Part shown: positions 4,598 through 56,754 of the stretch, piece after piece | How the letters are laid out: each line of letters starts with the position of its first letter | How positions within the stretch are numbered: the first letter of the stretch is position 1 | NCBI RefSeq assembly: GCF_000982415.1 | Contig: NZ_LANI01000025.1 | Span: 1 to 64,000 of the forward strand | Direction of reading: 5' to 3' | DNA from: Kiloniella litopenaei | GTDB taxonomy: Bacteria; Pseudomonadota; Alphaproteobacteria; Kiloniellales; Kiloniellaceae | Length of the DNA: 64,000 bases | Translations under genes and position numbers: made by a program | Notes under the pieces: model-generated | The model's input: the letters and a program-made list of their open reading frames with translations, nothing else | The model's database searches: none | What the model was told of the DNA's origin: nothing

Positions 4598-4704
4598 AAT
4601 GTGGCGCCTGTCTGGAAGAACCCTATGAGAGGGCCTTGATGGAAAAATAACGTAATGAGTAACGGCCGTAATTTAACAGGTAACAAGAACGAGGATGCAA
4701 GTTT

Positions 4705-5586: not shown

Positions 5587-5615
5587 ATCAAGAACCCTGA
5601 AACAGAAAGATCATT

Positions 5616-6023: not shown

Positions 6024-6142
6024 AAGCTGGTTTTGGGTAATCATCTGTAGATCAGTTATTGCTTGGTATCTGTCAGTTCTTCGTCAGCTTAAAACGATAG
6101 TGTCCTCTTTAATTAATACTCAAAAGCAGAGGATGTTAAAGA

Positions 6143-6526
6143 ATGAAGGGTATGAACCGTTGGACTGGCCTGATCTCTTTGGGTGGGCTGGTCGTTCTTT
6201 TGGGCGGATGCAGTAATACCGGGGCGGATTATCGGCCGATTGTTGATGGTGGTGAAAGTGCGGCCTATGAAAGTGATTTAAGCGAGTGTGCCAAAGTGGC
6301 CGATCAACGTGGCTATCTGAATGGTGATGTTCAAAATGCAGCCTTACTCGGCACGGGCCTTGGCGCCATTGTTGGAGGGCTGAGCGATGGTTGGGGCGGT
6401 GCTTTGGTTGGCGGTGTTATCGGCGCTGCCGGTGGTGCAGGTGCAGAAGCCTGGGATACCCAAGATGAACGCAAGCAAATTGTGAAGAACTGTATGAAGG
6501 GGCGTGGCCACAACGTTGTGGGCTAA
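6143..6526 (+). CDS. Glycine-zipper lipoprotein
   Basis: The 127 aa product has a lipoprotein signal with lipobox LLGGC (Cys23), so it should be lipid-anchored after signal peptidase II. The mature part carries a Gly-rich hydrophobic pair of segments (LGTGLGAIVGGLSDGWGGA, VGGVIGAAGGAGAEAW), like OmpA-associated or Rick-17kDa-type glycine zippers that pack in membranes. Two cysteines remain in the mature domain. It appears to be a single-gene unit with no clear partner. Confidence 0.75.
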   Translation: MKGMNRWTGLISLGGLVVLLGGCSNTGADYRPIVDGGESAAYESDLSECAKVADQRGYLNGDVQNAALLGTGLGAIVGGLSDGWGGALVGGVIGAAGGAGAEAWDTQDERKQIVKNCMKGRGHNVVG

Positions 6527-7668: not shown

Positions 7669-8931
7669 ATGAAACACTTGGTTATTCTTGGCGGTGGTTT
7701 TGCTGGTCTCTGGGCGGCAATGTCTGCTGCGGGTGCACGGGCTGATAACAATGAAGTAAAGGTTGATATTACCCTGATCTCTAATGATGCACATTTGGTG
7801 ATCAGGCCCCGCCTTTACGAAGGAGCGGGTGAAGACAAACGCGTTCCGCTAAAGCCACTGTTGGATAAGATTGGTGTTCGGTTTATTCAAGCAAAAATAG
7901 GGTCCATTGATCCTCGGCATAAACAGGTTTTTCTTTCAGATTATACCTTAGGCAAAGTATCATATGATGCGGTTATTCTTGCAACTGGTAGCCATCTTAA
8001 ACGGTTAAATATCCCGGGTGTTGAACAGTACGGATTTTCAGCGGATACCTATGAAGATACTGAAAGGCTGGATCACCAACTAAACCGGATAGTTACAGCA
8101 CAGGAAGAAGCCGCAAAAACACTTATTGTAATCGGTGCTGGCTTCACAGGTCTGGAACTTGCCACCGAACTGCGGAGCCGCTTGAAGAAAAAATCAGACA
8201 AAAAGTTCCGTATTATTCTGGTTGATAAAGAAGAGATCGCCGGGGCAGAGCTTGGGGTTAACCCGAAACCCTATATTGATGAAGCTCTACGATTACACGA
8301 CATTGAGCTTCGCCTGGGAACATCAATTAAAGAGCTGACAGAAAACAGTGTTACTCTTGCTGATGATCAGGTGATAGCAACCCAGACAGTTGTTTTCGCC
8401 AATGGAATGGAAGCAAATAAGCTGGCGGCAAGTTTTGGTGATCCAGATGCTGAGGCACAAGGACGATTGGCTGTTGCGCAAGATCTCAGCATTTCGGGTT
8501 ATGATAACGCCTATGGCGCTGGGGATGTCGTCTGGGCCTATACCGAACCCCAGCCATCTTCAGATAAGAGTAATCAGACGGCCTCTCTTACCGAAAATTT
8601 AACCTACGATTCTGATCGGCCGCGGACACTTTTTTCCTGTCAGCATGCGATCCAGCTTGGTCGTTTTGCAGGCTATAATGCCATAAGAAAGTTATCGGGA
8701 CAGCCGGGAAAAAATTATGAACAGGCCTTTTATGCGACCTGTCTTGATCTCGGCGACTGGGGCGCGCTTTTTACCACAGGTTGGGATCGCACAGCCGATA
8801 AAACAGGTGTTGAAGGTAAGGAAATGAAAAAGATGATCAATACCCAGTGGATCTATCCACCTTCGCCTGAATTGTCTCTGGAAGAAATCCACGCCTTTGT
8901 TGCTTTTGAGGTTGAAGATACTGCAGCGTAA
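7669..8931 (+). CDS. FAD-dependent pyridine nucleotide oxidoreductase, NDH-2-like
   Basis: The 420 aa protein has two dinucleotide-binding sites: GGGFAGLWAA near residue 8 for FAD and GAGFTGLELATEL near 160 for NAD(P)H. A third motif, GAGDVVWA near 283, contacts FAD. This is the layout of type II NADH dehydrogenases, which pass electrons from NADH to quinone at the inner face of the membrane without pumping protons. No clear C-terminal membrane helix is seen, so a soluble relative is possible. AAGGAATCTGAAAA precedes the ATG. The divergent LysR gene at 6608-7501 is the likely regulator. Confidence 0.82.
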   Translation: MKHLVILGGGFAGLWAAMSAAGARADNNEVKVDITLISNDAHLVIRPRLYEGAGEDKRVPLKPLLDKIGVRFIQAKIGSIDPRHKQVFLSDYTLGKVSYDAVILATGSHLKRLNIPGVEQYGFSADTYEDTERLDHQLNRIVTAQEEAAKTLIVIGAGFTGLELATELRSRLKKKSDKKFRIILVDKEEIAGAELGVNPKPYIDEALRLHDIELRLGTSIKELTENSVTLADDQVIATQTVVFANGMEANKLAASFGDPDAEAQGRLAVAQDLSISGYDNAYGAGDVVWAYTEPQPSSDKSNQTASLTENLTYDSDRPRTLFSCQHAIQLGRFAGYNAIRKLSGQPGKNYEQAFYATCLDLGDWGALFTTGWDRTADKTGVEGKEMKKMINTQWIYPPSPELSLEEIHAFVAFEVEDTAA

Positions 8932-8954
8932 TAAAGGTCGGGTCACTGATATAT

Positions 8955-8988
8955 AAAAAGGCTACCAGAACAAACTGGTAGCCTTTTT
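8955..8988. terminator. Bidirectional terminator
   Basis: A perfect 14 bp stem, AAAAAGGCTACCAG with CTGGTAGCCTTTTT and a six-base loop, lies between the convergent NDH-2-like gene and purH and can serve both. Confidence 0.9.
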
Positions 8989-9012
8989 GTCTCGTTGGAA
9001 AGCGAGATTCGT

Positions 9013-10587
9013 CTAGTGACGGAAGTGACGCATGCCCGTATAGACCATGGCAAGTCCTGCTTCGTCGGCGGCGGCAATGACTTCGTCATCACGCATGGAA
9101 CCGCCCGGTTGGATCACTGCGGTTGCCCCGGCTTCGGCGGCGGCAAGCAAACCATCAGCGAAGGGGAAGAAGGCATCGGATGACACCACAGAACCTATGG
9201 TTCCGGCCTGGCTCAAACCTGCTGTCTCGGCAGCTTCTTTGCTTTTCCAGGCGGCAATTCGGGATGAATCAACCCGGCTCATCTGTCCGGCACCAATGCC
9301 AACAATTGCGCCGTTTTTCGCATAGACGATCGCGTTGGATTTTACATGCTTGCCAACTCTGAATGCGAAAATCATATCGGCGATTTCCTGCTCGGTTGGC
9401 TGGCGTTTCGTGACAACTTTCAGATCGTCAGCCGTAATGCGGCCATTATCCCGCCCTTGCAACAGGAAGCCACCGGATATGGTTTTCATTGTCATGCCTG
9501 CATCGGTCGGGTTTGGCATCTCGCCTGTCACAAGAACCCGCAGGTTTTTCTTAGCAGCGAAGATCGCTTTGGCGTCGTCATCAATTGCCGGGGCGATAAC
9601 CACTTCCGCAAAAAGATCGGCAACTTGTGTCGCTGTGGCTGCGTCCATAGTTTTGTTGGTGGCGATGATGCCACCAAAGGCACTTGTTGGATCACAGGCG
9701 AGGGCAGCTTTGTAGGCGTCACTCAGATTGTCTGCTGTTGCCACACCACAGGGATTGGCGTGTTTGATAATGGCGATTGTCGGGGCATCGAATTCTGACA
9801 CCAGCTCAAAAGCTGCATCAGTGTCGTTCAAGTTGTTATAGCTTAGTTCTTTGCCCTGTAGCTGTTGTGCTGTGACAACGCCAGGACGGGCATCAATGGA
9901 CTTGTAGACTGCGGCTACCTGATGCGGGTTCTCACCATAGCGCAATGACTGTTTGAGCTTGCCACCCAAAGAAGTCTCACGAGGGAAGTCAACACCACAT
10001 TCCCCTTGAAGCCAATTTGAAATCATAGAATCATAACGTGCAGTATGGCTGTAAGCTGTCGCAGCAAGCTTGCGACGGGTTTCATTGGTTGTCGCACCTG
10101 CGTTGGCAGTCATTTCTTCTTGAACAAGGGTGTAATCATCGGGGTCAGTTACGATTGTTACAAAGCCGTGGTTCTTTGCCGCAGCACGCACCATTCCGGG
10201 GCCGCCGATATCAATATTTTCTACACAGGTATCATAATCGGCACCTGATGTGAGCGTGGCTTCGAAGGGATAGAGATTCACAACAACCAGATCAATCGGG
10301 GCGATGTCATGTTCTGCCATGGCATCAGTATGTGTCTTGAGGTCCCGCCGGGCCAGAATACCGCCGTGGATTTTCGGGTGCAGCGTTTTAACGCGCCCAT
10401 CCATAATTTCCGGAAAACCAGTGTGGCTGGAAACCTCTTTAACTGGAACGCCAGCGTCACTTAATGCGCGTGCAGAGCCCCCTGTTGAGAGAATTTCTAC
10501 GCCTTTATCAGCGAGAAACTTACCAAATTCAACAAGACCTGTTTTATCAGAAACAGAAACGAGAGCACGACGGATGGTGTCAGACAT
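9013..10587 (-). CDS. purH: Bifunctional AICAR formyltransferase/IMP cyclohydrolase
   Basis: PurH carries out the last two steps of purine synthesis: formylation of AICAR with 10-formyl-tetrahydrofolate, then ring closure to IMP. The 524 aa length is normal. The N-terminal MGS-like cyclohydrolase domain begins [20 protein letters not shown] and contains STGGSARAL. The transformylase half contains KHANPCGVA and [12 protein letters not shown] near the end. AAGGAA lies seven bases before the ATG. The leader has a 6 bp GC hairpin at 10613-10631. Confidence 0.97.
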
Positions 10588-31329: not shown

Positions 31330-32025
31330 ATGAGCACTGACTTTCCCGGCTTTCCCAAAGCAGGGTTTGAGTTTCTGGAAGATCTAAAAGAAAACAACAC
31401 TCGGGATTGGTTCGCTGAAAACAAAGCGCGCTATCGGGAAACGTTACAGGATCATTTACTGGATTTTATTCAGGCAATGGTCGAGCCTTTAGCCGAAATT
31501 ACCCCTCATTTTGTGGCCGATGCCCGTCGTAATGGCGGGTCGATGTTCAGAATTCATCGTGATATCAGATTTTCGAAAGACAAGCGGCCCTATAAAGAGC
31601 ATGCGGCGTGTCATTTCCGTCATTCGTTGGGCCGGGATGCCCATGCACCGGGTTTCTATGTTCATCTGGCAACGGATGAAGTGCTGTATGGCGGCGGAAT
31701 CTGGATGCCGCCAAGTGATGCGCTTTATATGATCAGGCGGGCAATCGTTGATCGTCCGAAAGAATGGGACAAGGTTTTATCAGATCCGGCGATCCGCGAT
31801 GTTTTTGGCGAAATCGGTGGCGATGGGCTCAAGCGTCCGCCAAAAGGTTTTTCAGCTGACGAGCTACATATTGAGGATCTCAAACGCAAAACCTTTTTCC
31901 TGATGCACCGGACAACACCCAAAGCAGCTCAACGTCCCGAGTTTTTAAACGAAGTTGTTGAAGGCTTTAAAACGGCCGCGCCGCTGATGAGATTTCTGTG
32001 TAAGGCCGTTGACGTTCCTTTTTAG
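31330..32025 (+). CDS. DUF2461 (TIGR02453) protein
   Basis: The 231 aa protein starts with the family signature FPGFPKAGFEFLEDLKENN TRDWF and holds FRIHRDIRFSKDKRPYK near residue 77. Function is not assigned in the family. It is the last gene before the AT-rich island, three bases after the GFA gene. Confidence 0.88.
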   Translation: MSTDFPGFPKAGFEFLEDLKENNTRDWFAENKARYRETLQDHLLDFIQAMVEPLAEITPHFVADARRNGGSMFRIHRDIRFSKDKRPYKEHAACHFRHSLGRDAHAPGFYVHLATDEVLYGGGIWMPPSDALYMIRRAIVDRPKEWDKVLSDPAIRDVFGEIGGDGLKRPPKGFSADELHIEDLKRKTFFLMHRTTPKAAQRPEFLNEVVEGFKTAAPLMRFLCKAVDVPF

Positions 32026-32210
32026 GTGGTATCAATCAGAATAGCTAGGTCTAACGAAATGCAATCATCTGTCTCAAACCATAATACTTGCGACTAATAA
32101 ATCAGACCATGATTTATAGCTACTTAGTTCCATTAGCCGACGTTCGGCTATTGAATATTAATACCATAATTAGGGGGAATTTTTAATTTTATAAACTGAT
32201 TATTTATTTT

Positions 32211-32259
32211 AAAGGGAGGACCAGTTATGTTGAATTATTATTATAAATCATTGAGTTAA
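32211..32259 (+). pseudogene. Orphan ribosome site with ten-codon reading frame at the island edge
   Basis: AAAGGGAGGA at 32211-32220 is an excellent ribosome site, with ATG at 32227 seven bases further. The frame then encodes only ten residues (MLNYYYKSLS) and stops at 32257-32259, overlapping the 3' end of the convergent DUF2779 gene. This looks like the start of a gene whose body was cut off, or a leader peptide. Between 32026 and 32210 there is only a small hairpin (AGCCGA/TCGGCT near 32136). Confidence 0.3.
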
Positions 32260-33668
32260 AGCTGTATCAAAAAGCGGTAAATCTCGACCATAGCAAAGGT
32301 ATCCATCTCACAGTATGAAAGAAGCGCTTTCGCTTGAATTTTAGTTTCTATTTCTGGAAAAGCAATCATTTTCTCCCATGCGTCCATAGCAGAAGTGCCA
32401 TCTTGTATATTTAACTCCTTAAAATCAAGATGAGGACAAATAATAGGTAATACTTTCTTGATCGATGTCGAGCCGTCAAAATGTGCATCAACATAAGCTA
32501 ATTTAAACACATCCTCCAGATTAACCAGCCGGGAATTTATGTCATTTAGGAAGTTACGTTTTTCGGGATACCATTTTGCCATTTCCTGATTTTGCTTTCT
32601 TTCGAATGATGCATGCCAAGAAACAATGCTTCCAGTTTCTCCAAAATCCTCTTCCATCTGCTCAATTAAATTTAATGGTAATTTTGCTTCATGTTGCAAA
32701 AAATCCTTATGAGTTAAAGTTCCATCTTTTTCTAGAATATGAAGTGAGTATTGGATTGGAAAATGTTTGTGTGGTGAAACTCCATCAATCAAGGGAACTG
32801 CGGAGGCATATGTTTCGTAGTCAAAAAAATACAGTGGATATTGATATTCCTTCAGGGTGTCCGATATTTCGGTTCTATCAATTTGAGGCTCCCCTGATTG
32901 TGCAGATCTTAATACGCGGGTTTGTATTTCCGACAGTAAATAATTAACTGGTACATCCTGTAAATTCATTATCCCTGCCATTAAAAATTCTTTCCGTTTT
33001 TTCGGGCTTAGCCTTGGCAAGTTATATATGGATTGATTTGATATATCCGGATTGAAATACTCAAAGGTATCACAGTGATGAGCTTTTGACTTGTAGATAC
33101 AGCTACACCTTTTCAGGTCAATTTTAGCCTTAGCCAAAAGATGTAAAGCTTGATTTATTTCTGTAGAAGTTTCTGCGTAGATTTTACGCACCTCATCAGT
33201 TACATCTTCGAAGATGAGTAAAGATTTTGGATTTATAGCTCCTTTACGTACATATTTTCCATTTAAATAAATGAGAATTATCTTATCTATTTTTTGGCCA
33301 CTTCTTTCAGCTGTAATAGTTTGGAAACAGGCGTCTTTTATATGATTATTATTTCCACTTTTCTTTATGCTAGTAGAGGACTTAACTTCATATAAACAAG
33401 TTTGACTCTTGGCATTAACCTCAAAACAGTCGATTTTTGTTAACAGGCCGTCATTCGACCGAAAGGTTTTATGATAACTTATAGTGCTATTTCTTGAGGC
33501 TTCGAAAAGAGTGTGTACGTACTCCATAACTTCGTCACTCTCGCGAGTCAGCTTTTGCATAAAAGCAGTGAAATTACCGTCTGGATAATTTTCATTATCT
33601 TTCTTGTACACCCAAAAGGATTTTGGACAGCTCAAGTAATGAATGAAATTTGTCTTCGTAAGTTCCAT
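32256..33668 (-). CDS. DUF2779 protein: Cas4/RecB-like nuclease fused to DnaQ-like exonuclease
   Basis: The N-terminal half looks like a PD-(D/E)XK nuclease of the Cas4/RecB type: Asp80 in LTKIDCFE, Glu94 and Lys96 in YEVKSS, and cysteines 14, 188, 190 and 199 placed like the Fe-S ligands of Cas4. The C-terminal half reads as a DEDDy 3'-5' exonuclease: FFDYETY (Asp283, Glu285), WHASFE near 351, and YCEMDTFAM with Tyr452 and Asp456. DUF2779 has this two-domain build; its function is unproven. Together they predict a DNA-processing enzyme. It lies on the same strand downstream of the two reverse transcriptases, in the same AT-rich block, and may serve with them. Confidence 0.8.
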   Translation of the reverse strand: MELTKTNFIHYLSCPKSFWVYKKDNENYPDGNFTAFMQKLTRESDEVMEYVHTLFEASRNSTISYHKTFRSNDGLLTKIDCFEVNAKSQTCLYEVKSSTSIKKSGNNNHIKDACFQTITAERSGQKIDKIILIYLNGKYVRKGAINPKSLLIFEDVTDEVRKIYAETSTEINQALHLLAKAKIDLKRCSCIYKSKAHHCDTFEYFNPDISNQSIYNLPRLSPKKRKEFLMAGIMNLQDVPVNYLLSEIQTRVLRSAQSGEPQIDRTEISDTLKEYQYPLYFFDYETYASAVPLIDGVSPHKHFPIQYSLHILEKDGTLTHKDFLQHEAKLPLNLIEQMEEDFGETGSIVSWHASFERKQNQEMAKWYPEKRNFLNDINSRLVNLEDVFKLAYVDAHFDGSTSIKKVLPIICPHLDFKELNIQDGTSAMDAWEKMIAFPEIETKIQAKALLSYCEMDTFAMVEIYRFLIQL

Positions 33669-33779
33669 ATTTTTGCTATCATTCGAATTAACATAAATCA
33701 GGCCACCCAGAATTTCTTAATTCTCCCTATTTTTAGTTAGGTAATGATTAGGCCCTTGTAAAATCAAAGCTGGGAAACT

Positions 33780-33912
33780 GCAAAAAAGGGAGTAAATATG
33801 CTTAAAGCGGCTCACCATGGCCGCTTTAATTGGTTATGCTGTTTTAATCCAGCAATACCATACGCATGTGTGTGAACTGTCTAGGACAATCCGTAAGTTA
33901 GGTGATTGCGTA
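33780..33912 (-). ncRNA. Candidate DRT3 non-coding RNA with CACACACA template tract
   Basis: The gap after drt3b folds, read on the minus strand, into three hairpins: 33904-33909 with 33886-33891 (6 bp); 33857-33859 plus 33850-33854 with 33832-33834 plus 33837-33841 (8 pairs and a small internal loop); and 33820-33829 with 33802-33811 (perfect 10 bp). The unpaired linker between the first two holds CACACACA at 33874-33867. A U-rich stretch follows hairpin three. DRT3 is reported to use an RNA with an ACACAC template for poly(GT) synthesis, so sequence, strand and position fit. The ends are guesses, and the RNA could share the drt3 transcript. Confidence 0.6.
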
Positions 33913-33915
33913 AAT

Positions 33916-36033
33916 TTAATATACCTCTTGGCTTTGCTTAGCGTCTAGCTCTTTTCCAAAATTGAAATTATCCCAATTGGTAAACCATAATTGTCGACGT
34001 CCAGATTTTGATTTGAAATTAATAATATCGTTTTGAGTAGAGAGTTCTGTAACATTGAAACTACTCAAAATTTTTTGTTTGGTTGATTTACTAACATATG
34101 GACATGAAATTATATCAAGAGCTAACATAGTCATTTCAGCCTCTTTGAAGCGTGTTTTCTTTTTTGTTTCGACTTTAAATAAAGCGATTTTCTCGATTTT
34201 CTTTCTTAAATGATCATATCTCTTTTTATTTCTCATATAAAATAATGATACTGTTATAGAGAAATAATCAAAGTTCCTTTCTACCTCTTCAATTTTTTCA
34301 GGTTCAAGGCCTAAATATTCAATTAATGCAGATTCCTCTAGCCAGAAATCTTTGCCTAATTGTGTTAAAGCAATAAGGAGGTAAAGAGTTTCAATTTGAG
34401 AATAGCCGATTTTGTTGTTCTTCTTTATAACGAAGGATATTTCATCAAAAATTAATTTGTGAATTTGATTACTATATTCTCTATTCTTCATTCCCAGGAG
34501 AAATTCACAAATTGATCTAATTACCCGGCATAACCTGATGGTTGTATTAACCTTTGGGGAAACTGTATAAATGAAAAAGACGAACTCAAGTATATGTAAT
34601 AATGCATTAACTAACTGACGTTCACTATGCGTGGTTTTTTCTACAAAATGATAGTTATATAGTATTTTTTCAATTTTTTTCTCAATCACTGCAAATGTGT
34701 AATTGAGCATATCTTTGTAATCTACATTATTAGTTTTTATAATGGTTTTAAAGGTGGTTATAAGGCGGTTAGCATTAACAGATATTGAACCTACTGTTTT
34801 TATTTCACCGCAATCATCACTCACCTCTTCACATTTATATTGTAGACTTTTACTTAAAAATTTCGAGATTTGATTTTTAGCAATAGTGATGTCAGTAATA
34901 ATTGGCTTATTAAAATCTTCTGCTTTATTTGAATTTAATGAAAGTTTATACTCTTTAAGGGCGATTTGTAGTTCATTGACTATTAAAGTCTTATCTTCAG
35001 CATTATTATAGAAAATGAAATAATCATCAACATAACGATATATTTCATAATCGTGTTTAAATTTTAATTTATTGGGTGTTTTCTTAAGTCTTTCTTCTAG
35101 ATTACGGTCAACTCTTTGAAGAATGATTTCTGCAAAAACTCTCGAGAATTCAGGCCCGATAACTATGCCATTAGTTTCACCATAATGTAGGCGTTGCATT
35201 AGTTTATCGAAGCGACCACTAAAGCTATTATTGGCCTTAGTGATAAATTCCTTAGAAGCGCTTTTACCAATAACAGCCCAAACTATTGAGTGGGTATAAA
35301 TACTATCAAAACACTTTGATACATCCAATTTTTCTAAGTTATCGTATCGCTTTTCACATTTGTGATATAAAAATGATTCATAAAACTTATAAATATTACT
35401 GATTTCTTTGTACGAAAAGAACGATTTTAAATTTTCGTGTTCTTTATTGTGCTCTTCAATAATACTATCGATTTCAGTATTCGCTAATCGGCTAAAATGA
35501 AGTCGATCTTTCAAAAATTTATATGTTGAAATTTTATTGGGTCTTCTTAAAGAAAAATTGCTAAGTGAGGTATAGTATAAAATTGTTTCTTTATGGCGAT
35601 CATAAAACTCGATCACAGACATTTGGCTTCGCGGATGCGGTATGGTCAATTCTCTAAATTCAGACTTTTTGTGATTTATTTTGAAGCTAAACGGGGTTAG
35701 ATTTGTATGTGCACTATCCCCTTTCCCAGGTGCACCATTATTGAATACCTCAAATGTGGTCTCAAAACCTTTAATTTCAATTTTTTTGTCAGCAACTTTC
35801 TTAGGATTCAAAGGTAAAGAAAAAAGAATATGCATCAATGAGTTAAGTGCTTTACTGCCTTTCTTCCAGCGAAGTGAAATGTTATTGTCAGCATTGATAC
35901 ATTCAATCTTGTTTTCTAAGACAAAGCTATAAAAATGGCGGTTTGAAAATGAAAGAGGCACTTCATAGGGTAATACATCTGACAGAAGTGTCCGTTCTTT
36001 CTTATATTTAATATTCAATTTTCTAGCGGACAT
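33916..36033 (-). CDS. drt3b: Second DRT3-type reverse transcriptase (Drt3b/UG8-like)
   Basis: The 705 aa protein has the palm motifs of a reverse transcriptase: motif A with Asp237 in LDVSKCFDSI, motif B NGIVIGPEFSRVFAEIIL (288-305) and motif C YVDD (334-337). A long N-terminal region (1-160) includes LPYEVPLSFSN near residue 21, and a helical extension of about 300 residues follows the palm. No maturase, HNH or integrase part is present, which argues against a group II intron. Pairing with an upstream 467 aa RT and the order short-then-long match DRT3. In DRT3 the second enzyme is reported to make the AC strand without a nucleic-acid template. ATG 36033 overlaps the upstream gene by 11 bases. 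Confidence 0.8.
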   Translation of the reverse strand: MSARKLNIKYKKERTLLSDVLPYEVPLSFSNRHFYSFVLENKIECINADNNISLRWKKGSKALNSLMHILFSLPLNPKKVADKKIEIKGFETTFEVFNNGAPGKGDSAHTNLTPFSFKINHKKSEFRELTIPHPRSQMSVIEFYDRHKETILYYTSLSNFSLRRPNKISTYKFLKDRLHFSRLANTEIDSIIEEHNKEHENLKSFFSYKEISNIYKFYESFLYHKCEKRYDNLEKLDVSKCFDSIYTHSIVWAVIGKSASKEFITKANNSFSGRFDKLMQRLHYGETNGIVIGPEFSRVFAEIILQRVDRNLEERLKKTPNKLKFKHDYEIYRYVDDYFIFYNNAEDKTLIVNELQIALKEYKLSLNSNKAEDFNKPIITDITIAKNQISKFLSKSLQYKCEEVSDDCGEIKTVGSISVNANRLITTFKTIIKTNNVDYKDMLNYTFAVIEKKIEKILYNYHFVEKTTHSERQLVNALLHILEFVFFIYTVSPKVNTTIRLCRVIRSICEFLLGMKNREYSNQIHKLIFDEISFVIKKNNKIGYSQIETLYLLIALTQLGKDFWLEESALIEYLGLEPEKIEEVERNFDYFSITVSLFYMRNKKRYDHLRKKIEKIALFKVETKKKTRFKEAEMTMLALDIISCPYVSKSTKQKILSSFNVTELSTQNDIINFKSKSGRRQLWFTNWDNFNFGKELDAKQSQEVY

Positions 36034-37375
36034 ATTTCCATACCTCCACTATTTGTTCTAATTCACTGGGCTTAAATTTATAGAATCTTATTTTTTCAAA
36101 TCCTTCTATGAAAGATTGCTTAAAAATCGTTGATTTTAAATATTTAGACTGAAGCACTGAAGTCTTAGATTTGAGATGATCATCAAGTTCCTTTAAATCC
36201 TGAATTCCTTTTTTACAAATAAGAGGATTGGAGAAATATATCCCTGAAACTACATTTTTTTTGTTGTTTACAAGGCGGGTATTCGCAGCAAGAAATTTCA
36301 ATCGATTAACTAGTAATTTTCGGGATTGTCGTTCTGAATTTTTTCGACTGTATAAATAATCACTAAAAGCTAAATTAATTCTAGTTTTGTATCGAGTTTT
36401 CTTCTTCTCACTTAACCCAATGGACACATTTCCTGCATCAACCTGAATTTTATACCCAAGATATTCAAAAAAAAATTCATTTGATGGATGCGATCTAATT
36501 AATCGTGTTTTTGCACTATTATATTCTAATTTAAGCGAAGAAATTTGAGTTTGGAAAAATCGCCCAACGTCAATTGGATTTCCATTAGCTGGTGGACAAA
36601 AAATGAAAATAATATCGTCGACATACCGCGCGTAATAAATGACGCCAGGAAAGCGATAAATCTCCATATCCAACTTTCTCATGTATAGCTCAGATAAATA
36701 AGCACTTAATCCTATACCTCGGGGTATTCCTTTTGGGCTTCCGGATAATTTACCGTATTCATACAGAACCTTTTTTATTATCTTCTTAGTACTAATCGAT
36801 AGATATGGGTCACCATTTATTTTACTTATAAGCTGGTCTCTAGGTATGTTTTCATAAAATCCAACTATGTCTGTTTTTACAATATACTTTGGGAATTTAT
36901 CGCTTAACAATTCACGTAATTGGCAAATTATATGATGGCGATTACTTTGTTTTACCTTATAGATTCTGCGAATATTGTATTGAACTTGCCTTAATGTAAA
37001 ATATGAAACAGCTTTATCTTCTATTGTATAAGCGGCCTTCCCCATTCCAATATCAATTTCTTTTATTTTGATATCGAGATCAGAGTGAAGTGCTTCATCA
37101 GAAATTTTTTCTAGCTCTTCACCAATCTTTGCCTCTCTCTGTTCTTTAAGTTGCCTTAATTCTTCACCTAAAGCTTCAAGATCTTCGATATACTCTTCAG
37201 CTGTAAGTTCATTTTTTTTAGATTTGTGATTTTCATATTCGTTTTTTTTCCTTTGAACCTCTTGAGTAATCTCAAGCAATTCAGGAAAAAACCTTTTCTC
37301 CAAATAGTTACCTTTTCGGTTCTCTATATCGAATATTTTTCGAAAATTCTTTGGTGAAAATGATTGGTCAAGCAT
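36023..37375 (-). CDS. drt3a: First DRT3-type reverse transcriptase (Drt3a/UG3-like)
   Basis: The start is set at ATG 37375 (MLDQSFSPKNFRKIFDIENR), the likely family-like start; in-frame starts up to GTG 37426 would add 17 residues, and none has a strong ribosome site. Numbering below uses the long form. A Lys/Glu-rich coiled-coil region (54-110) precedes the palm. Motif A is KTDIVGFYENI (Asp186), motif B GIPRGIGLSAYLSELY (233-248), motif C YVDD (268-271). Similar two-RT operons are the antiphage DRT3 systems, in which this enzyme copies an RNA template into poly(GT). Strongly AT-rich, like its neighbours, and unlike the flanking genes, which suggests horizontal transfer. Confidence 0.8.
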   Translation of the reverse strand: MLDQSFSPKNFRKIFDIENRKGNYLEKRFFPELLEITQEVQRKKNEYENHKSKKNELTAEEYIEDLEALGEELRQLKEQREAKIGEELEKISDEALHSDLDIKIKEIDIGMGKAAYTIEDKAVSYFTLRQVQYNIRRIYKVKQSNRHHIICQLRELLSDKFPKYIVKTDIVGFYENIPRDQLISKINGDPYLSISTKKIIKKVLYEYGKLSGSPKGIPRGIGLSAYLSELYMRKLDMEIYRFPGVIYYARYVDDIIFIFCPPANGNPIDVGRFFQTQISSLKLEYNSAKTRLIRSHPSNEFFFEYLGYKIQVDAGNVSIGLSEKKKTRYKTRINLAFSDYLYSRKNSERQSRKLLVNRLKFLAANTRLVNNKKNVVSGIYFSNPLICKKGIQDLKELDDHLKSKTSVLQSKYLKSTIFKQSFIEGFEKIRFYKFKPSELEQIVEVWKYVR

Positions 37376-37426
37376 GAGTAACCCTGATCCTGTGCTCACA
37401 CTTAACTGGCAAGAAGTATTCATCAC

Positions 37427-37747
37427 TGTGAAAATTATTGTTCGAGTACAAGGTATCTACGCGACCCCACAAACATTTCTCTGTTACTGCAATATTCTCT
37501 ACCTGCGCCATATGCTGTTAAATTCTTTCTCTTCGATCTATTTTTAAATCGGGCAATATGTCCGCTTTGGGTTGGTTGCGGAAGTTCGGTAATAATTCAA
37601 ACATTATATAAAATTGACTGATGCACAACCTTTGGTGTTATTGCGTTTGTAAATTAATCGGACGTTTTCTTGACGCTGTAGTAGTTTCAAAAGCCCGATA
37701 AGTGCGGTTTGAAGCTCTGATGATTGCAGTTCATTCAAACTAGTTGA
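37427..37747 (-). promoter_or_regulatory. Leader and possible promoter of the drt3 operon
   Basis: This 321 bp region has no gene. On the minus strand a TATAAT box (37603-37608) lies about 180 bases before the drt3a start, with a weak GGTTGT at -35 distance (16 bp). The long leader shows no CA-repeat tract. The island edge is somewhere here before the HxlR gene end at 37748. Confidence 0.3.
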
Positions 37748-38113
37748 TCAACCAGATGTTTCGTTCTCGGAAGTCTCTTTGTTCAACGCATCCAATGGTA
37801 TCTTGGTGCCCTCAATATATTCCAGCCCCCAGGTTGTTACTTCGCGGATAAGGGGGCGAAGTGCCTGTCCCTTTGGGGTGAGGCGATATGCGTAGCGCGG
37901 CGGATTATCCTGATAGGACTTTTTCTCAACAATACCTGACTGTTCGAGGCGCTTGAGACGATCCGCAAGGATGTTGGTGGAAATTTTCTCGGGAGAACTC
38001 AAAAGTTCTTTGTATTGGCTTTTGCCAAAATGCATCAGATCGCGAATGATCAGAAGCGTCCAGCGATCACCCAGGATTTCCAGTGTTTGGGAAATGGGAC
38101 AGCTTGATCGCAT
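37748..38113 (-). CDS. HxlR-family transcriptional regulator
   Basis: The 121 aa winged-helix protein has the HxlR signature: Cys5 in MRSSCPISQ, LEILGDRWTLLIIRDLMHFG, and ISTNILADRLKRLEQSGIV. Such proteins often respond to thiol or aldehyde stress through the early cysteine. It is divergent from the NmrA-like gene at 38314 and probably regulates it. Confidence 0.92.
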   Translation of the reverse strand: MRSSCPISQTLEILGDRWTLLIIRDLMHFGKSQYKELLSSPEKISTNILADRLKRLEQSGIVEKKSYQDNPPRYAYRLTPKGQALRPLIREVTTWGLEYIEGTKIPLDALNKETSENETSG

Positions 38114-38313
38114 TGGTCACCTTCTGGTTGGTTATCTGGTGTGTTGGCAGAGAGAAAATCGCCACATTGATAGTCTATCATTTTATTGGATTCAAAATAA
38201 AAACAATATGCTCAGCAGCCTGTTCCAAAAGAAACCGTCTGCGTCTTTTTGTTTCTTGATTGACCTGAACAAGAAAGAGATAAGGGAGGTCTAATCTAAA
38301 GGGAGTTTTTGGA

Positions 38314-39258
38314 ATGTACCTTGTGGCAGATGCAAGTGGCCCCATTGGACGCGCGGTAACAGAACAGTTGGTCGGACAGGGGCAACTGGTTCGGGTTTTG
38401 ACTGCGGATGCAGCCTGTCGCGATTTGTGGCGTGGCCGCGGGGTTGATGTGAACGAAGGTGATCCCAAACATGCATCCAGTTGGGCAAAGGCGCTTTCCG
38501 GTGTGCAGACACTGATTGCTATCTTGCCGCCTTTTTTGAGTGAAGAAGGTTTGCTTGGGGCGGCGGATGGCTATCGTTCTGCTTTGGTTGAGGCACTTTC
38601 TTCCGGCGGTTCAGATTTTCGGGCTGATCATGCGCAAAAGATAAAAATCGTGCTGTTGTCAGCTATGGGGGCAGAGAAAAAAATTGGCTGGGCCAAAATA
38701 CTTGGACAGTTGGAAAGCGAGCTTAAAAGCTGTTGCAAAAATCTGACGATCATCCGGACGGCTTTTATCATGGAAAATCTGGCGTCTGGTATGGCGATGG
38801 CCAAACACCATTCGGTATTCCCCAGCTTTTTTATTGAAAAGCAAAACTATGCCATGGTGGCACGAAACGATCTTGTCTCCGTTCTGGTTTCAGCAGCCCT
38901 TGATCCGCTTGATGGCTATAGCCTGTTAGAGCTTCACGGGCCGGAAGCTTACAATCTGGACGACATTGTTGAAGCCGGGCGGAATGTTCTCAACAAGCAT
39001 ATTGCATCTCTGTCATTACCCCAGAATGACTGGCTTCAGATTATGATTGATCAGGGGTTGGATGAAAATGCTGCGTTGATGTGGCGCGATTACTACACGC
39101 AGATGAATCTCGGAAACATTACAAGCGATCCAAGCGCAACCCCGATTGCCGGGGAAAGCAAGCTTTCGGATGCTCTTTTTCAGGTCTGGAAGTTGATGCG
39201 ACAAAAAGAGCGTGCGGCAATCGACCCGGAAAAGAAAATATATGAAGGTTTGGTCTAG
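38314..39258 (+). CDS. NmrA-like NAD(P)-binding protein
   Basis: The 314 aa atypical short-chain dehydrogenase starts MYLVADASGPIGRAVTEQL, a variant of the GASGxxG dinucleotide loop in which the first glycine is Ala-Asp. Later stretches (LLSAMGAEK, LTIIRTAFIMENLA) are typical of NmrA/quinone-reductase-like proteins. Members sense or use NAD(P)H; no catalytic Tyr-Lys pair is seen. It faces away from the HxlR gene, a common pairing in redox-responsive units. Confidence 0.82.
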   Translation: MYLVADASGPIGRAVTEQLVGQGQLVRVLTADAACRDLWRGRGVDVNEGDPKHASSWAKALSGVQTLIAILPPFLSEEGLLGAADGYRSALVEALSSGGSDFRADHAQKIKIVLLSAMGAEKKIGWAKILGQLESELKSCCKNLTIIRTAFIMENLASGMAMAKHHSVFPSFFIEKQNYAMVARNDLVSVLVSAALDPLDGYSLLELHGPEAYNLDDIVEAGRNVLNKHIASLSLPQNDWLQIMIDQGLDENAALMWRDYYTQMNLGNITSDPSATPIAGESKLSDALFQVWKLMRQKERAAIDPEKKIYEGLV

Positions 39259-51138: not shown

Positions 51139-52386
51139 TTACCTGTAAGTTTTCGGTCCTTCCGTGATTTTTGTCAGGTGGATAAAGCTGATGCAGGTTA
51201 TCAAACTAAATGATGTTGCGATAAAATAAAAATTGCTATAGCCGATTAGATTGACAAGATAACCACTAATAATACCTGCTATAACGGCAATTGCTGTATC
51301 AGCGGATTGAAAAAGCGTAAAATCCACTCCAGCTTGGTGTTTAGAGCTAAGGCTCATCAAAATGGCGTAAATGATTACAAACCCCATAGCTGATGTATAT
51401 GATAGCAACAATGTTGAAATAAGGATCCAGAGCTTAGGAGCTTCAGGAGTAAGGCAAATAAGGGTAATACCGCCTACAGTGATTAATTTACAAAAAGTTA
51501 TAAATAATAAAGAGGTCCGTTTGGTCTGATTCTGAAGTAGTACACTCCCTGCTAAAGCTCCTGCCAGGCCGAGTAATGCTCCTCCAATCCCATTTACGAG
51601 GCCGATATAATAAAGACTAATTTTGCTGTCGACGAGTAGCGGCCCTATCATGCTAAGAGATAATCGATTACCAATGGCATAAATAGATATCATTATGAGG
51701 CCATAAATTACTTCTTTTCTCTTTAGGGCATAAATTAGGCTCGGGGTATGTTTTGTTTGGGCTGCTTTTGCATGTTCTTCTTTGATAAAACAAAGAGGAA
51801 CCGAGAGTATTCCTAGCAGTAATCCAATAATTATAAAGGATTTCTCTGGATTAAAATAACTGACAAGGGTTACGAATAATCCGCCTCCAATTAAGATACC
51901 GATATAACTACTGCCCGTTTGTGCAAAACTCCCCCAATTTTGATTATTTCTCGGGACTTGTTCTATGGTTAGGGCATCGGCAGCGATATCTATTGTTGAT
52001 GCTATAACCGCAATAAATATAAGAGCACATAATATCCATTTGAAATCATTGAGTTGGGAAATAAGGAACAAACAAAGTATTAAGATAAACTGCCCAATTA
52101 AAATTATGGCCTTGCTTCGTTTGGAGCCGTCATTTTTTATACGGTATTTTTCAACATAGGGTGCCCATAAGAATTTAAGTGACCAAGGTGCCATAGCAAG
52201 GAAAACCATGCCGATAAGATGATGATCATATCCCTCTGATCTCAAAATCGCAGGTAAACCAATAAATGTTAGACCACCGATCGCGCTTTGCAGTGCATAG
52301 ATACTTGATATTGCTATAAGTAATTTAATAGTGGGCCAACGTTTCAAAGAATTGGTGTTCATTTGTGAAAGTGTCATGTTAATCAA
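51139..52386 (-). CDS. RhtX/FptX-like siderophore permease (MFS)
   Basis: The 415 aa protein has about 12 helices and an AmpG-like start (YALQSAIGGLTFIGLPAILR, PWSLKFLWAPYVEKYRI), the build of RhtX/FptX inner-membrane permeases. These bring ferric siderophores such as rhizobactin or pyochelin into the cytoplasm without an ABC system. Its ATG overlaps the stop of the monooxygenase gene (ATGA). With the upstream TonB receptor it forms an outer-plus-inner uptake path. Confidence 0.85.
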   Translation of the reverse strand: MINMTLSQMNTNSLKRWPTIKLLIAISSIYALQSAIGGLTFIGLPAILRSEGYDHHLIGMVFLAMAPWSLKFLWAPYVEKYRIKNDGSKRSKAIILIGQFILILCLFLISQLNDFKWILCALIFIAVIASTIDIAADALTIEQVPRNNQNWGSFAQTGSSYIGILIGGGLFVTLVSYFNPEKSFIIIGLLLGILSVPLCFIKEEHAKAAQTKHTPSLIYALKRKEVIYGLIMISIYAIGNRLSLSMIGPLLVDSKISLYYIGLVNGIGGALLGLAGALAGSVLLQNQTKRTSLLFITFCKLITVGGITLICLTPEAPKLWILISTLLLSYTSAMGFVIIYAILMSLSSKHQAGVDFTLFQSADTAIAVIAGIISGYLVNLIGYSNFYFIATSFSLITCISFIHLTKITEGPKTYR

Positions 52387-53567
52387 TTTTTTTCCTGAAT
52401 ACCGTTTTCAGAATCCATAATCTCAGATTGGATGTTTTTGAGGAAATAACGACCTAGAAGGTTTTCAGGTATGAGCTTCATGCTTAAATTTCTCAACCAG
52501 AAGCCGTAATGGGTTTTGGGTATAAAAATAGATGCAATTTTTCGACTTCTTTTTTGCAGGCGCAAAATTGATTTCCTTAGCTGATTTTCGTAATAAACCA
52601 TACCATTTGGGAGACCATGCCTTTTAATACCTTCGGATAAAAGATATGCACCCGTTAAAGCCATGCCGGCGCCTTGGCCAGATAATAAAGACATGCAGTA
52701 TGCTGCATCACCAATTACAACTTTGTTGCCTTGACTCCATTGAGGCATTTCTATCATTGCCATATTATCGAGATAGATATGAGCTTGTTGGGACTTGGCT
52801 AATTCGATCCTCTCAAGGCATATAGGATTGGCTCCCGAGAAGATATTTTTCAAATATTCAGCGCGGCTATTTTGTGGAATAGAAGATATATTGTTGTTTT
52901 GCCAACAGAGAATTGCCACTAATTGTTTTTCGTTGAGAGCATAATATTGACTTTGTCTACTAGGTTCTACATATGAGACAAACTCTGTTTGTAGAGTATT
53001 GGGGATATCAACTGTAAAGGCTGCTACGCTATATCCCATATGATGTATGAATTGGCTTTCATTTCCAAAAAATTTCGATCTCAAATCTGAATGAATTCCA
53101 TCCGCTCCGATTATTAAATCGTACGATTTCCTCGACCCAGATTGAAATATGACTTCTGTCTGACCATGCGCATGGTCGCTGAATGATATTGCTTTTTCAC
53201 CAAAGGTTATGGGGAGGTCATCCTTTGTGTGATTATAGATGGTTCGTACAAGATTAGTTCTTGGAAAGCTTAAAAACTCTAATTCTTCAAGTATTTTAGA
53301 GTAGTTGAGTCTATGCAGATGTTTTCCGGTTTTGCTTATGTATAAATTTTCTCCTATTGAGATATTTTGCTGTAGGAGGTCATTTTTTAAACCCATTTTT
53401 TCGGCAATATTAAGTCCTGGCCCTGAAAGGCCGATCATATATCCATTTTGCTTAAAATCTGGATATTTTTCGACAACTTCAACGTCCAAATTTTGTCGGT
53501 TTAGCCACCAAGCTGTAGCTAAACCGGCAACGCCAGCGCCACAAATTAAAACTTTCTTTTTTTGCAT
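52383..53567 (-). CDS. FAD-dependent monooxygenase (PHBH-like) in an iron-uptake operon
   Basis: The 394 aa protein has the FAD fold GAGVAGLATAWWLNRQ near residue 10, the middle DG motif LIIGADGIHSDLRSKF and VIGDAAYCMSLLSGQGAGMA for the FAD phosphate. It belongs to the group A aromatic-ring hydroxylases. Between a siderophore receptor and its permease it may oxidise the incoming siderophore to free iron or catabolise it; this is inference. It is tied to the permease by a four-base overlap and lies 17 bp after the receptor. Confidence 0.85.
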   Translation of the reverse strand: MQKKKVLICGAGVAGLATAWWLNRQNLDVEVVEKYPDFKQNGYMIGLSGPGLNIAEKMGLKNDLLQQNISIGENLYISKTGKHLHRLNYSKILEELEFLSFPRTNLVRTIYNHTKDDLPITFGEKAISFSDHAHGQTEVIFQSGSRKSYDLIIGADGIHSDLRSKFFGNESQFIHHMGYSVAAFTVDIPNTLQTEFVSYVEPSRQSQYYALNEKQLVAILCWQNNNISSIPQNSRAEYLKNIFSGANPICLERIELAKSQQAHIYLDNMAMIEMPQWSQGNKVVIGDAAYCMSLLSGQGAGMALTGAYLLSEGIKRHGLPNGMVYYENQLRKSILRLQKRSRKIASIFIPKTHYGFWLRNLSMKLIPENLLGRYFLKNIQSEIMDSENGIQEKN

Positions 53568-53583
53568 AAATTTTTTCCCTAAC

Positions 53584-55608
53584 CTAGAAGCGACTGGTTA
53601 GAGATAAGCCTAAAAACCGTCCTTCACCCAGTTGGCTTTTGGTGCCTCCTGGCCCAAAATCAAAGGCACTAACCCTGTAATTTTTATCTGTAAGGTTTTC
53701 CCCAAATACTTTAAGAGACACATTTTCTGTTACGTCCCAAGTCGCAGAGGCATCAAAAAGCATATAACCGCTTTGAGTTATAGTATTGGCTTCGTCAAAG
53801 TATGTTTTCCCAATATAACGTCCACCGGCTTGTATAGAAAGTTCACCCGGTATGGATGAGATAGGCAAAAGATAATCAGCAGATAAATTGTATGTTTGAT
53901 CTGGCGCGTAAGGAACCCGATTGCCACTATAATCACTTGTAGCTGTGGGGTCATTATAATCCTCGAATGTAGATTTTCCTATATGAGCGCTGCCTAAAAG
54001 CGTTAGATTATCACCGAGGTAGGCGCGAGCAGATAGCTCAATACCTTTACTTTCTGCAGTACCTACATTTTTTAAAACGCGAAATGGCTGAGTACCGACA
54101 TAGATTTGTTTGTCATCTGTTTTGATGAAATAAGCTGCCGTGTTGAGTTCCAGATTATTATTGAAGAATGATGTTTTTGCTCCAACTTCAAAATTATCCG
54201 ATATTTCAGAGTTGTAAGCGATGCTGTCATTAATACTGCTAACGGCTTTGTTAAAGCCTCCAGGCTTATAACCTTGGCTGTAAAGGCCGTATACCCGAAC
54301 ATTATTGAGCAGGTCGTAGCCAATGGCTAACTTTGGTGAGATATTGGTAAAACTTTTTTCACTGTTAAAGTTAAAATTGGTTGGAGATGTTTGCTCGAAA
54401 TTTACTTCTGCTAAGTCGTAAGAAAAACGGGCGCCTGCTGTTAAGTCGAGCTTGTCCGTTAAAGAGTATGTTCCTTCACCAAAAACGGCATAGCTATCAA
54501 TTTGATGTTTTCCTATGTTTGTGCCAGATGCCGAAACTGGTTTTCGTTCAAAATTTGTTCGTTGAGCATATATGCCGGCAACGCCATTCAAATTATCGCT
54601 GGGTTCAAAGGCTATTCTAATTTCTTCAGAATAAGATGTCTGGGTTTCTGGTAATTCGCTTCCAAATATATTCCTTTCTAGACCTCTGTCTTGAAAGGAT
54701 GTAATCGACTGTAATTCTATTTTATCCCAGTTATAGCTTAAATCTAGGGATGCAGATGTTGTTTTTCTCTCTAATTCTGGTTTTGTGCCACCCTGTGCCA
54801 CAATTGTGACTTCCCGGTTTTTCTCGTCGGAAGCGTTAACGTAGAATTCTTCGTGAGATTTGTAATCCTCATGTGTGAGGGATAACTCTGCCTCAAAAGG
54901 GTTGTCTTTTTCTGCGTAACGAAGCTTGCCTCTAAAATATTTGGTCTGGTTATCATCTACTTTATTATCACTGATATCTGTCGCAGTTAGCTCACCAGAT
55001 TCATGCGATTTTTTGATGGAAAACTCTCCAAACAGTTTATCTTCAAAAAGAGGACCTGAAACGAGAGCCTGTCCGTATTGTTCTTTACCATCAATAGAGA
55101 GTTTACTCTCGAGTCTGAATTCGTCATCTGGTTTTCTTGTGATTATGTTTATGACACCGCCCTGAGCGTTTCTGCCATATAGCGTGCCTTGTGGACCTTT
55201 CAGAATTTCAACGTGATCGAGATTGAGTAGCTCTTGTGAGAAGACGGCCTGATCTTGAGGGCTACCATCTACATAAATACTGACTGAGGGGTTATAAAAA
55301 TCTGAAGAGGAGAGACCGCGGATACTGATATTACTGTATGCTTTATTTCCTCGACTACGAATTTGAAGACTACTATCCAGTCGATCAAGGTCCTTGACGC
55401 TATCGATTCTGGATTTTTCTAGCTCTTCAGAATCATATACTTGTATTGAAGAATTAATTTCTTCAATGGTCTGGTCTCGTTTAGTAGCGGTTATGACGAT
55501 TTCGTCTAATAAGATATCTGATGCATATGACCTTTCTATGGATAAAGTGCTCATTATTGTTATTGATGTTTTTAATATTTTACTTATTTGCATTGCCCCA
55601 AGTCTCAT
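53584..55608 (-). CDS. TonB-dependent siderophore receptor, FyuA-like
   Basis: The 674 aa outer-membrane protein has a signal peptide, a TonB box region (DEIVITATKRDQ), a plug domain with LKGPQGTLYGRNAQGGVIN and a C-terminal barrel ending in Phe (LSLTSRF). The plug and barrel style resembles the pesticin/yersiniabactin receptor group. Transport is driven by TonB-ExbBD elsewhere in the genome. It heads the receptor-monooxygenase-permease operon and shares the Fur-type palindrome at 55733-55763 with the divergent AraC gene. Confidence 0.92.
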   Translation of the reverse strand: MRLGAMQISKILKTSITIMSTLSIERSYASDILLDEIVITATKRDQTIEEINSSIQVYDSEELEKSRIDSVKDLDRLDSSLQIRSRGNKAYSNISIRGLSSSDFYNPSVSIYVDGSPQDQAVFSQELLNLDHVEILKGPQGTLYGRNAQGGVINIITRKPDDEFRLESKLSIDGKEQYGQALVSGPLFEDKLFGEFSIKKSHESGELTATDISDNKVDDNQTKYFRGKLRYAEKDNPFEAELSLTHEDYKSHEEFYVNASDEKNREVTIVAQGGTKPELERKTTSASLDLSYNWDKIELQSITSFQDRGLERNIFGSELPETQTSYSEEIRIAFEPSDNLNGVAGIYAQRTNFERKPVSASGTNIGKHQIDSYAVFGEGTYSLTDKLDLTAGARFSYDLAEVNFEQTSPTNFNFNSEKSFTNISPKLAIGYDLLNNVRVYGLYSQGYKPGGFNKAVSSINDSIAYNSEISDNFEVGAKTSFFNNNLELNTAAYFIKTDDKQIYVGTQPFRVLKNVGTAESKGIELSARAYLGDNLTLLGSAHIGKSTFEDYNDPTATSDYSGNRVPYAPDQTYNLSADYLLPISSIPGELSIQAGGRYIGKTYFDEANTITQSGYMLFDASATWDVTENVSLKVFGENLTDKNYRVSAFDFGPGGTKSQLGEGRFLGLSLTSRF

Positions 55609-55732
55609 AGTTTATAGCGTTGCTTTTTAAGCATTTGATGTCACGCCGTTAATTTTTCATTTGGGCACACTTTATTGACATATAATTTTGAAACCACCGT
55701 GATCAGGGTGAAAATTGTTGCAATCGGAACTA

Positions 55733-55763
55733 ATAATTAATAATGATTATCATTATTAATTAT
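55733..55763. promoter_or_regulatory. 31 bp Fur-type palindrome between receptor and AraC genes
   Basis: Two 14 bp arms (55733-55746 and 55750-55763) pair perfectly around a TTA centre and contain AATGATTATCATT, very close to the Fur box GATAATGATAATCATTATC. It covers the region just before the AraC start and upstream of the receptor. Iron repression of both directions is the likely role; alphaproteobacteria may use Fur/Mur or another iron regulator. Confidence 0.75.
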
Positions 55764-55776
55764 AGAGGGTATTTTG

Positions 55777-56754
55777 TTGACGAAAAATAGAAAATTTTCT
55801 GAGCAAAAATTACTTTTAAAAGTATTAGAGAATCATGAAATCCGTGCAGTTAATGAACCATCTGATGGTGGATTGGATTTTACTGATTGGATCCGGCGAG
55901 AAGATCTCGAAAGAGGGCTAAGTATTAATCGTATTGATAAGATTGTTGATAAACCAGTAATTATGGAAGCTGAAGGACCTCCTGTATTTTCACTGGTAAC
56001 ATTCTTTTCAGGGGAAGGTTACTTATCTATAACAGATGGTAAAAAGCTAAAATTAATACCTAACACATTGGTTTTATTTTACTCTAAAGCAATAGCTAAT
56101 GGTCGAAATGAGTTCTATCCACCAAGTCCATTAAAATTTATTGAAGTAAGATTTAATATTGAATTTTTACAGAAAATAATTCCACGTGAATTGAATAAAT
56201 TCACAGAACTGTTTGTTTCTGATTATTCTGTTCCCTCTAAAAATGCTTGGTTAAAATCAGTTCTAACGCCACCAGAAATTTTGCCAATTATGCAAGATTT
56301 ATGGGATTTGAATTTACCTGATAGTGCTCTGAAGACGCTTTATTTAAAAGGGAAAGCATTGGAGGTTCTCTCGTTGGTTATACAATTTTTTGAAAAACAG
56401 AATAATTCAAAGAATAACGTATCTTTGTCACCATCTGACAAACGAAAAATATATCAGGCACGAGAGCTTCTAGAAAAAAAGCCTGATAAAGAATGGCAAA
56501 TAGCTGAAATATCTCGGACAGTTGGTATTAATGAAAGAAAATTAAAATTTGGTTTTAGAAGTATTTTGGGGGCATCAGTGTATGCCTCTCTTCAACAGAT
56601 ACGAATGGAGTTAGCAATAAATTTACTTCTGGAAACTGAAGAAAGTATTACTGATATAGCCCTTACCGTTGGTTATTCAAATCCAAGCCATTTCTCGCAA
56701 CTTTTTAAGCGTTATTACAAATGTACGCCAAAACAATATAGGTATAAGGCGTAG
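55777..56754 (+). CDS. PchR/YbtA-like AraC-family regulator
   Basis: The start is TTG 55777, seven bases after GAGGG; TTG 55774 leaves only four. The 325 aa product has an N-terminal sensing domain and a C-terminal AraC HTH pair (EISRTVGINERKLKFGF; DIALTVGYSNPSHFSQLFKR) typical of regulators of siderophore uptake that respond to the ferric siderophore. Divergent from the receptor operon. AT-rich, as are the three genes beside it. Confidence 0.9.
   Translation: MTKNRKFSEQKLLLKVLENHEIRAVNEPSDGGLDFTDWIRREDLERGLSINRIDKIVDKPVIMEAEGPPVFSLVTFFSGEGYLSITDGKKLKLIPNTLVLFYSKAIANGRNEFYPPSPLKFIEVRFNIEFLQKIIPRELNKFTELFVSDYSVPSKNAWLKSVLTPPEILPIMQDLWDLNLPDSALKTLYLKGKALEVLSLVIQFFEKQNNSKNNVSLSPSDKRKIYQARELLEKKPDKEWQIAEISRTVGINERKLKFGFRSILGASVYASLQQIRMELAINLLLETEESITDIALTVGYSNPSHFSQLFKRYYKCTPKQYRYKA

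Follow-up and report, generated by a model that had tools for sequence, protein, structure and literature searches.

The window analysed here, namely the first 64,000 nucleotides (nt) of contig NZ_LANI01000025.1 of Kiloniella litopenaei (RefSeq assembly GCF_000982415.1; Alphaproteobacteria), very probably carries a complete-looking and seemingly intact operon of the type 3 defence-associated reverse transcriptase (DRT3), a system of an already known kind. Two reverse transcriptase (RT) genes, drt3a and drt3b, are followed by a non-coding RNA (ncRNA) with its template, and the whole sits in a defence hotspot (Table 1). What the DNA itself shows comprises the genes, the RNA with its template, the residues for catalysis, gating and priming, and the location within the hotspot. 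The interest of the locus beyond the known kind lies in its compact RNA, in the occurrence of DRT3 in hosts without a RecC match, and in a recurrent nuclease neighbour.

The initial annotation of this stretch had described two overlapping minus-strand genes, each with a motif A aspartate and a YVDD motif C and neither with a maturase or endonuclease domain, and had tentatively assigned them to DRT3 (UG3 plus UG8). We found the two frames, of 705 and 467 residues, overlapping by 11 nt in the list of open reading frames; alignments placed both motifs in both enzymes; and RVT_1 was the sole Pfam family in each RT at E up to 0.1, a threshold at which no maturase or endonuclease domain was seen in either. 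The profile comparison that had been named beforehand as a check gave no grounds to abandon the assignment, with the following results. First, both proteins passed the curated NCBIfam cut-offs, Drt3a with 384 bits against NF041747 (cut-off 200) and Drt3b with 753 bits against NF041748 (cut-off 350), a match that covers positions 1-647 of 647 and hence runs to the end of the profile. Second, PADLOC agreed, as the best family for the first protein was Drt3a (381 bits; next other family 101) and for the second Drt3b (673 bits; next other family 153). Third, sequence searches of solved chains gave 9z6y as the nearest for Drt3a (E 3.7e-30), and 26cz (E 4.6e-86) and 9z6y/9z6z (E 5.3e-73) for Drt3b. 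These are the only two proteins that an RT domain search found in the 85 contigs of the host genome.

The open frame of drt3a spans 36023-37426, with a GTG start at 37426. Its true start is probably the ATG at 37375 (M18, MLDQSF...), because relatives begin at the residue that matches M18: this column holds M in 63 of 84 aligned Drt3a proteins, and V or L in 15 more, as expected from GTG or TTG starts. Catalytically dead Drt3a enzymes were also considered, as a string search had missed Y.DD in many of these proteins; the idea was dropped once the alignment showed YVDD, FVDD or YADD in all 84.

To place the functional residues of Drt3b we used as reference the protein of locus L155 (E. coli AR_0019, 667 residues), which holds two tested stretches of 26cz, fits its length, and has E22, R71, D182, R241 and YVDD at the positions numbered in PMC13174585. 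Residues E22, R71, D182, F187, R241, Y276-V277-D278 and Y666 of this protein align with E24, R127, D237, F242, R298, Y334-V335-D336 and Y705 of the window. Therefore, by alignment, the window enzyme has the nucleotide-gating E24 and R298, as well as R127 and the catalytic D237 and D336, and the equivalent of the priming tyrosine, Y705, is its last residue. Further traits ascribed to DRT3 are a helical-repeat C-terminal domain of Drt3b and a trimer/hexamer assembly, on which the window offers a family-profile match that reaches the profile's end.

Conservation across the family was evaluated in a set of 92 loci, composed of the best 80 of 462 relatives, 8 of 11 plasmid hits, the window and 3 hits from the host's class; three Lactobacillales plasmid hits (55% coverage), the most distant relatives, and nine weak hits in phage records were left out. 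After setting aside the split gene of L023 and the partial one of L087, 90 Drt3b proteins could be aligned, although these rows are not independent, since L004 and L037 lie on the same contig and many others are close kin. Position R298 is R, and D237 and D336 are D, in 90/90. The second Asp of YVDD is D in 89/90, the exception being N in L006 (genome G290); R127 is R in 89/90, with N in L030; and Y705 is Y in 89/90, with L059 misaligned there and its own tail ending in Y. Finally, E24 is E in 88/90, the two gaps, in L028 and L029, coming from a script-chosen start, with D and E seen there in another alignment.

The candidate RNA that the initial annotation had placed after the genes was recovered by a covariance model built without the window. 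Such a model of our own was needed because a scan of 32000-38500 against Rfam was negative up to an E of 1. The helices first emerged when 32 loci, the window among them, were aligned, after which 20 relatives were realigned without it. The layout has a closing helix and a hairpin immediately 5' of the template, then one more hairpin, variable in length, and a last one that resembles a terminator; the model, R1, comprises the helix closing the template region, the hairpin 5' of the template and the terminal hairpin, the variable third hairpin being omitted. In the 20 relatives, 92.7% of 357 cells of the modelled helices are paired, and 14 of 18 pairs have changes on both sides. Their covariation score, 0.538 against a shuffle mean of 0.287, is reached by none of 500 shuffles, and the number of further pair types by 9 of 500. 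When partners are slid by 1-3 columns, 30-52% are paired, a control that favours the structure, as this was read off the same sequences.

R1 finds the RNA of the window with 47.2 bits (E 1.7e-10, by a rough calibration), the sole hit across the 64 kb with an E of 10 or less. Beside drt3b, it matches at E up to 0.01 in 54 of 62 further loci, several of them close kin of model members, and at E 0.02-0.9 in L059, L089, L092 and L093, with no match at E up to 1 in L058, L062, L097 and L108. It also matches L023 (54.6 bits), L024 weakly (21.7) and L025 doubtfully (12.9), and finds nothing beside drt3b in L026-L030 and L006. As for the template, the 450 nt that follow drt3b contain ACACAC in 90 of the 92 loci and CACACA in the remainder (L058 and L062), and no template other than (AC)n accompanied by an altered Drt3b gate was seen in the set. 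The run starts 36-46 nt past the drt3b stop codon in most of the branch to which the window belongs, and 41 nt past it in the window.

Several of these results weigh against an identification with DRT3 as known from E. coli. The Drt3b of the window is only 36.7% identical overall to that of L155, and its RNA scores below most of the loci found by R1. The model does not match the E. coli loci L155-L157 at E up to 10, and the template run lies 128 nt past the stop codon in L155 and L157 and 234 nt in L156, compared with 41 nt here. However, R1 does match L158, another E. coli type. Because R1 misses L155-L157 and the run is nearer the stop codon in the window, the RNA, judged by model and spacing, is of a compact type, unlike that of the E. 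coli system in which the products were characterised.

Table 1. Features of the DRT3 locus and its surrounding block, in window coordinates.
Feature	Position	Strand	Description	Basis
drt3a	36023..37375	-	UG3-type (Class 2) reverse transcriptase, 450 aa from the probable start; YVDD motif C	NF041747, PADLOC, PDB 9z6y
drt3b	33916..36033	-	UG8-type (Class 1) reverse transcriptase, 705 aa	NF041748, PDB 26cz and 9z6y, residue mapping
DRT3 ncRNA	33798..33920	-	Compact form, about 125 nt, ends approximate	Covariance model R1
Template	33867..33874	-	CACACACA (ACACAC at 33868-33873)	Position in model; ACACAC common downstream of drt3b
3'-end hairpin	33804..33827	-	G+C-rich, probable terminator	Helix 3; 8 pairs, 7 with both-side changes in relatives
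DUF2779 gene	32256..33668	-	470 aa; Cas4-like PD-(D/E)XK part and RNase H-like, presumed 3'-5' exonuclease part	PF11074
Variable block	32145..37557	.	About 5.4 kb, approximate extent	Flank alignments to congeners

The DRT3 block sits in a defence hotspot, since congeners carry other cargo, or no insert, between the same flanks. Besides the host, eight congeners were searched. L126, L127 and L128 align at 84-89% on both sides, to the left through 32144 and to the right from 37558, and their cargo consists of a DNA methyltransferase and an HSP90-like ATPase protein, of a dGTPase and an RmrA-like protein, and of CBASS genes for a cyclase, an E2 and a SAVED-HNH effector, respectively. In L130, L131 and L132 the flanks are about 70 to 180 bp apart, without an insert of such size; of the remaining two congeners, L133 is cut off by the end of its contig, and the other yielded no match. 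The initial annotation had placed the operon in an AT-rich block between ordinary chromosomal genes. The composition was borne out, with a G+C of 0.29-0.40 across 32-38 kb versus 0.42-0.54 for the majority of the remaining 1-kb steps in the window, but the downstream neighbour, a gene for a DUF2779 nuclease, is not an ordinary one.

For synthesis, products and defence we rely on analogy with the published E. coli system. According to that account, E. coli Drt3a copies an ACACAC RNA template into poly(dTdG), and Drt3b, primed by Y666 and gated by E22 and R241, synthesises poly(dCdA); the two products anneal and are kept low by RecBCD, and inhibition of this enzyme by lambda Gam sets off the response (PMC13174585). 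By this analogy, Drt3a of the window, bound to the small RNA encoded just downstream, would be expected to copy the template CACACACA repeatedly into poly(dTdG). Drt3b, in turn, would be expected to prime from Y705 and to alternate dC and dA under the control of R298 and E24, yielding poly(dCdA) without a nucleic acid template. Both strands would then anneal into double-stranded (TG/CA)n DNA, which in the uninfected cell a host double-strand exonuclease would hold low. A phage that blocks this exonuclease would let the (TG/CA)n DNA accumulate, and growth would halt before the phage spreads.

Restraint of the product by RecBCD, which belongs to the host context and is not a defining part of DRT3, is a trait of E. 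coli for which the RecC profile found no counterpart in this host. RecC gave no match in the host genome with one profile, for which the E. coli control was positive, and AddB, RecB and RecD were not searched for; AddA of the alphaproteobacterial type scored 1241 bits (cut-off 861). Among 50 of 80 DRT3 genomes examined, RecC was found in 14, and the 36 without a match rest on this one profile and on genomes of unreported completeness. If DRT3 works in those 36 genomes, RecBCD would not be its general brake. Because the host has AddA and no RecC match, the plain guess is that AddAB would take the place of RecBCD as restraining exonuclease here, with the adjacent DUF2779 nuclease as another possibility. 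Among the open-licence papers searched, none covers both DRT3 and AddAB, and the six that mention DUF2779 do not appear among those listed for DRT3. The locus makes testable what restrains DRT3 in the many hosts without a RecC match, and whether DUF2779 has any part in it.

The protein encoded by the neighbouring gene matches PF11074 with 117.5 bits (cut-off 23.3), and Cas4 profiles weakly (best E 7.4e-8); it has no match among solved structures at E up to 1. PMC3985635 places DUF2779 among presumed 3'-5' exonucleases of RNase H-like fold with a PD-(D/E)XK-like part. A DUF2779 gene occurs in the flank of 8 of the 92 DRT3 loci, window included, several flanks being short or ending at a contig edge. 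In the window, L031, L033, L034, L043 and L093 it directly follows the ncRNA and shares its strand; in L032 and L057 it lies on the opposite strand, upstream in the former and downstream in the latter. The proteins of the six relatives scanned pass the Pfam cut-off, that of L034, unscanned, being 97% identical to that of L033. Among the 14 largest neighbour families listed, DUF2779 is the largest family of first downstream genes.

This neighbour raises an alternative that we regard as unlikely, though the most probable of those considered: a three-component variant of DRT3, in which, in hosts lacking RecBCD, (TG/CA)n DNA would be trimmed or destroyed by the DUF2779 nuclease, acting as either brake or effector. 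Consistent with it, the gene is the sole other large one between the hotspot edges, and the domain is rare in the class (12 of 372 genomes), the single copy of the host being the one in the block. Moreover, given the starred branches in a tree of 19 DUF2779 proteins, the DRT3-linked label must have changed 3 times or more, a hint of repeated association with DRT3; a tree of 31 Drt3b proteins requires at least 4 changes, and in it the label does cluster, with a value as low in 1 of 500 shuffles. However, the label shows no excess clustering on the DUF2779 tree, where 111 of 500 shuffles scored as low, and defence genes cluster anyway. In addition, 84 of the 92 loci show no DUF2779 gene in the flank covered, and relatives at 56-57% identity occur in L151 and L152, where no DRT3 genes are among the frames listed and whose genomes (G138 and G300) are outside the 20 with a Drt3b match. 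The E. coli system is likewise described without DUF2779 in the available portion of its account (PMC13174585), and the lack of RecC is confounded with taxonomy. The neighbour is a possible accessory nuclease of DRT3. A bolder proposal, somewhat less probable still, is that a branch of DRT3 in hosts without RecBCD has repeatedly recruited its own DUF2779 nuclease as a third component, policing or executing on (TG/CA)n DNA; if true, a guard role held in E. coli by a housekeeping enzyme would here be encoded inside the defence cassette.

Much less probable than the variant with a nuclease is that the locus is a decayed or silent DRT3 remnant that hitch-hikes in a variable island. Damaged copies do exist elsewhere, as the drt3b of L023 is annotated as two pieces and the drt3a of L034 is interrupted, but neither window frame is interrupted over the length of its family, none of the functional residues tested is lost, and the RNA pairing is kept. 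Hardly credible is a different two-RT system that merely resembles DRT3, derived from another UG family, a group II intron or a retron: the proteins do match the UG17, UG4, Drt6 and Drt4 profiles and a group II RT model, but at about a quarter of their Drt3a and Drt3b scores or less, the NCBIfam scores for group II RT, Drt2, Drt4 and Drt5 are under the curated cut-offs (for TIGR04416, 73 and 43 bits for the two RTs versus 300), and a DRT3 RNA with its template is present at the locus. A retron RT was not the best PADLOC match of either protein, as RT_Ec107-like reached 37.9 bits for Drt3a, among the best 25 of 36 families, and none appeared for Drt3b among the best 25 of 30; nor was there a match to a retron RNA, looked for through Rfam alone. 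Hence an intact DRT3 operon is the reading that we retain.

With regard to the edges of the block, the sequences at 32060-32144 and 37558-37691 recur elsewhere in congeners, both of them in L129 and the right-hand one in L134 and L135; the right-hand one has one further weak match in the host genome. A defined mobile element was considered for the block and set aside, as the edge sequences in L129, the only one of the three loci with genes listed, flank ordinary-looking genes. We read these sequences as dispersed intergenic repeats, which may serve as recombination sites for the hotspot. In L128, the 3' part of the gene to the left of the block (window 31681-32140) is present twice, at 5875-6332 and 8803-9942, and the cargo differs between the sides, which gives the impression of cargo stacked onto the end of this gene; between the two copies lies a frame that, from its sequence, we take to be transposase-like. 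Elsewhere in the window, at 51139-56754, there is a second AT-rich block, with a G+C of about 0.35-0.40. We presume from their appearance that its genes encode a TonB-dependent receptor, an FAD monooxygenase, a transporter and an AraC-type regulator, with a hemC-like gene right after; the block is possibly an acquired iron-uptake island.

Other DRT3 systems close to this one include compact-RNA loci such as those of Robiginitomaculum (L031) and Henriciella (L033), whose Drt3b proteins are 59% and 52% identical to that of the window and which have the DUF2779 neighbour on the same strand; both are among the 20 sequences of R1. The former differs in that its drt3a is covered in part only, the DNA beginning 729 bases before drt3b, and L034, a near-twin of L033, in that its drt3a is interrupted. 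In L034, at 4698-5845, two frames lie just before drt3b where L033 has an unbroken drt3a, and to our eye they resemble IS3-type transposase genes. The DRT3 of PDB 9z6y/9z6z, which we take to be the structures of Deng et al. 2026, is matched by Drt3b over residues 113-705 of the query and by Drt3a over 127-466. It differs in the N-terminal part of Drt3a, where the match, with an E of just 3.7e-30, begins only at residue 127.

The E. coli system (EcoDRT3; Drt3b chain 26cz; PMC13174585) shares with the window the order drt3a-drt3b-ncRNA, YVDD in both RTs, the gating E and R, the C-terminal tyrosine and the ACACAC template. It differs in the sequence of Drt3b and in its RNA, as the distances and the identity given above indicate, the window having a compact RNA with CACACACA close to the stop codon. 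It also differs in its surroundings, as the L155 genes adjoin an integrase, and the window belongs to a host without a RecC match. In L155 and L157 the DRT3 genes immediately follow that of a tyrosine integrase, close to a tRNA-Thr gene, and downstream of them are ogr-like and polarity-suppression genes. We take these settings to be, probably, P4-like phage satellites. With a Drt3b that is 37% identical to the E. coli enzyme and yet keeps the gating and priming residues and the template, the window copy offers an independent test of the rules drawn from the E. coli system.

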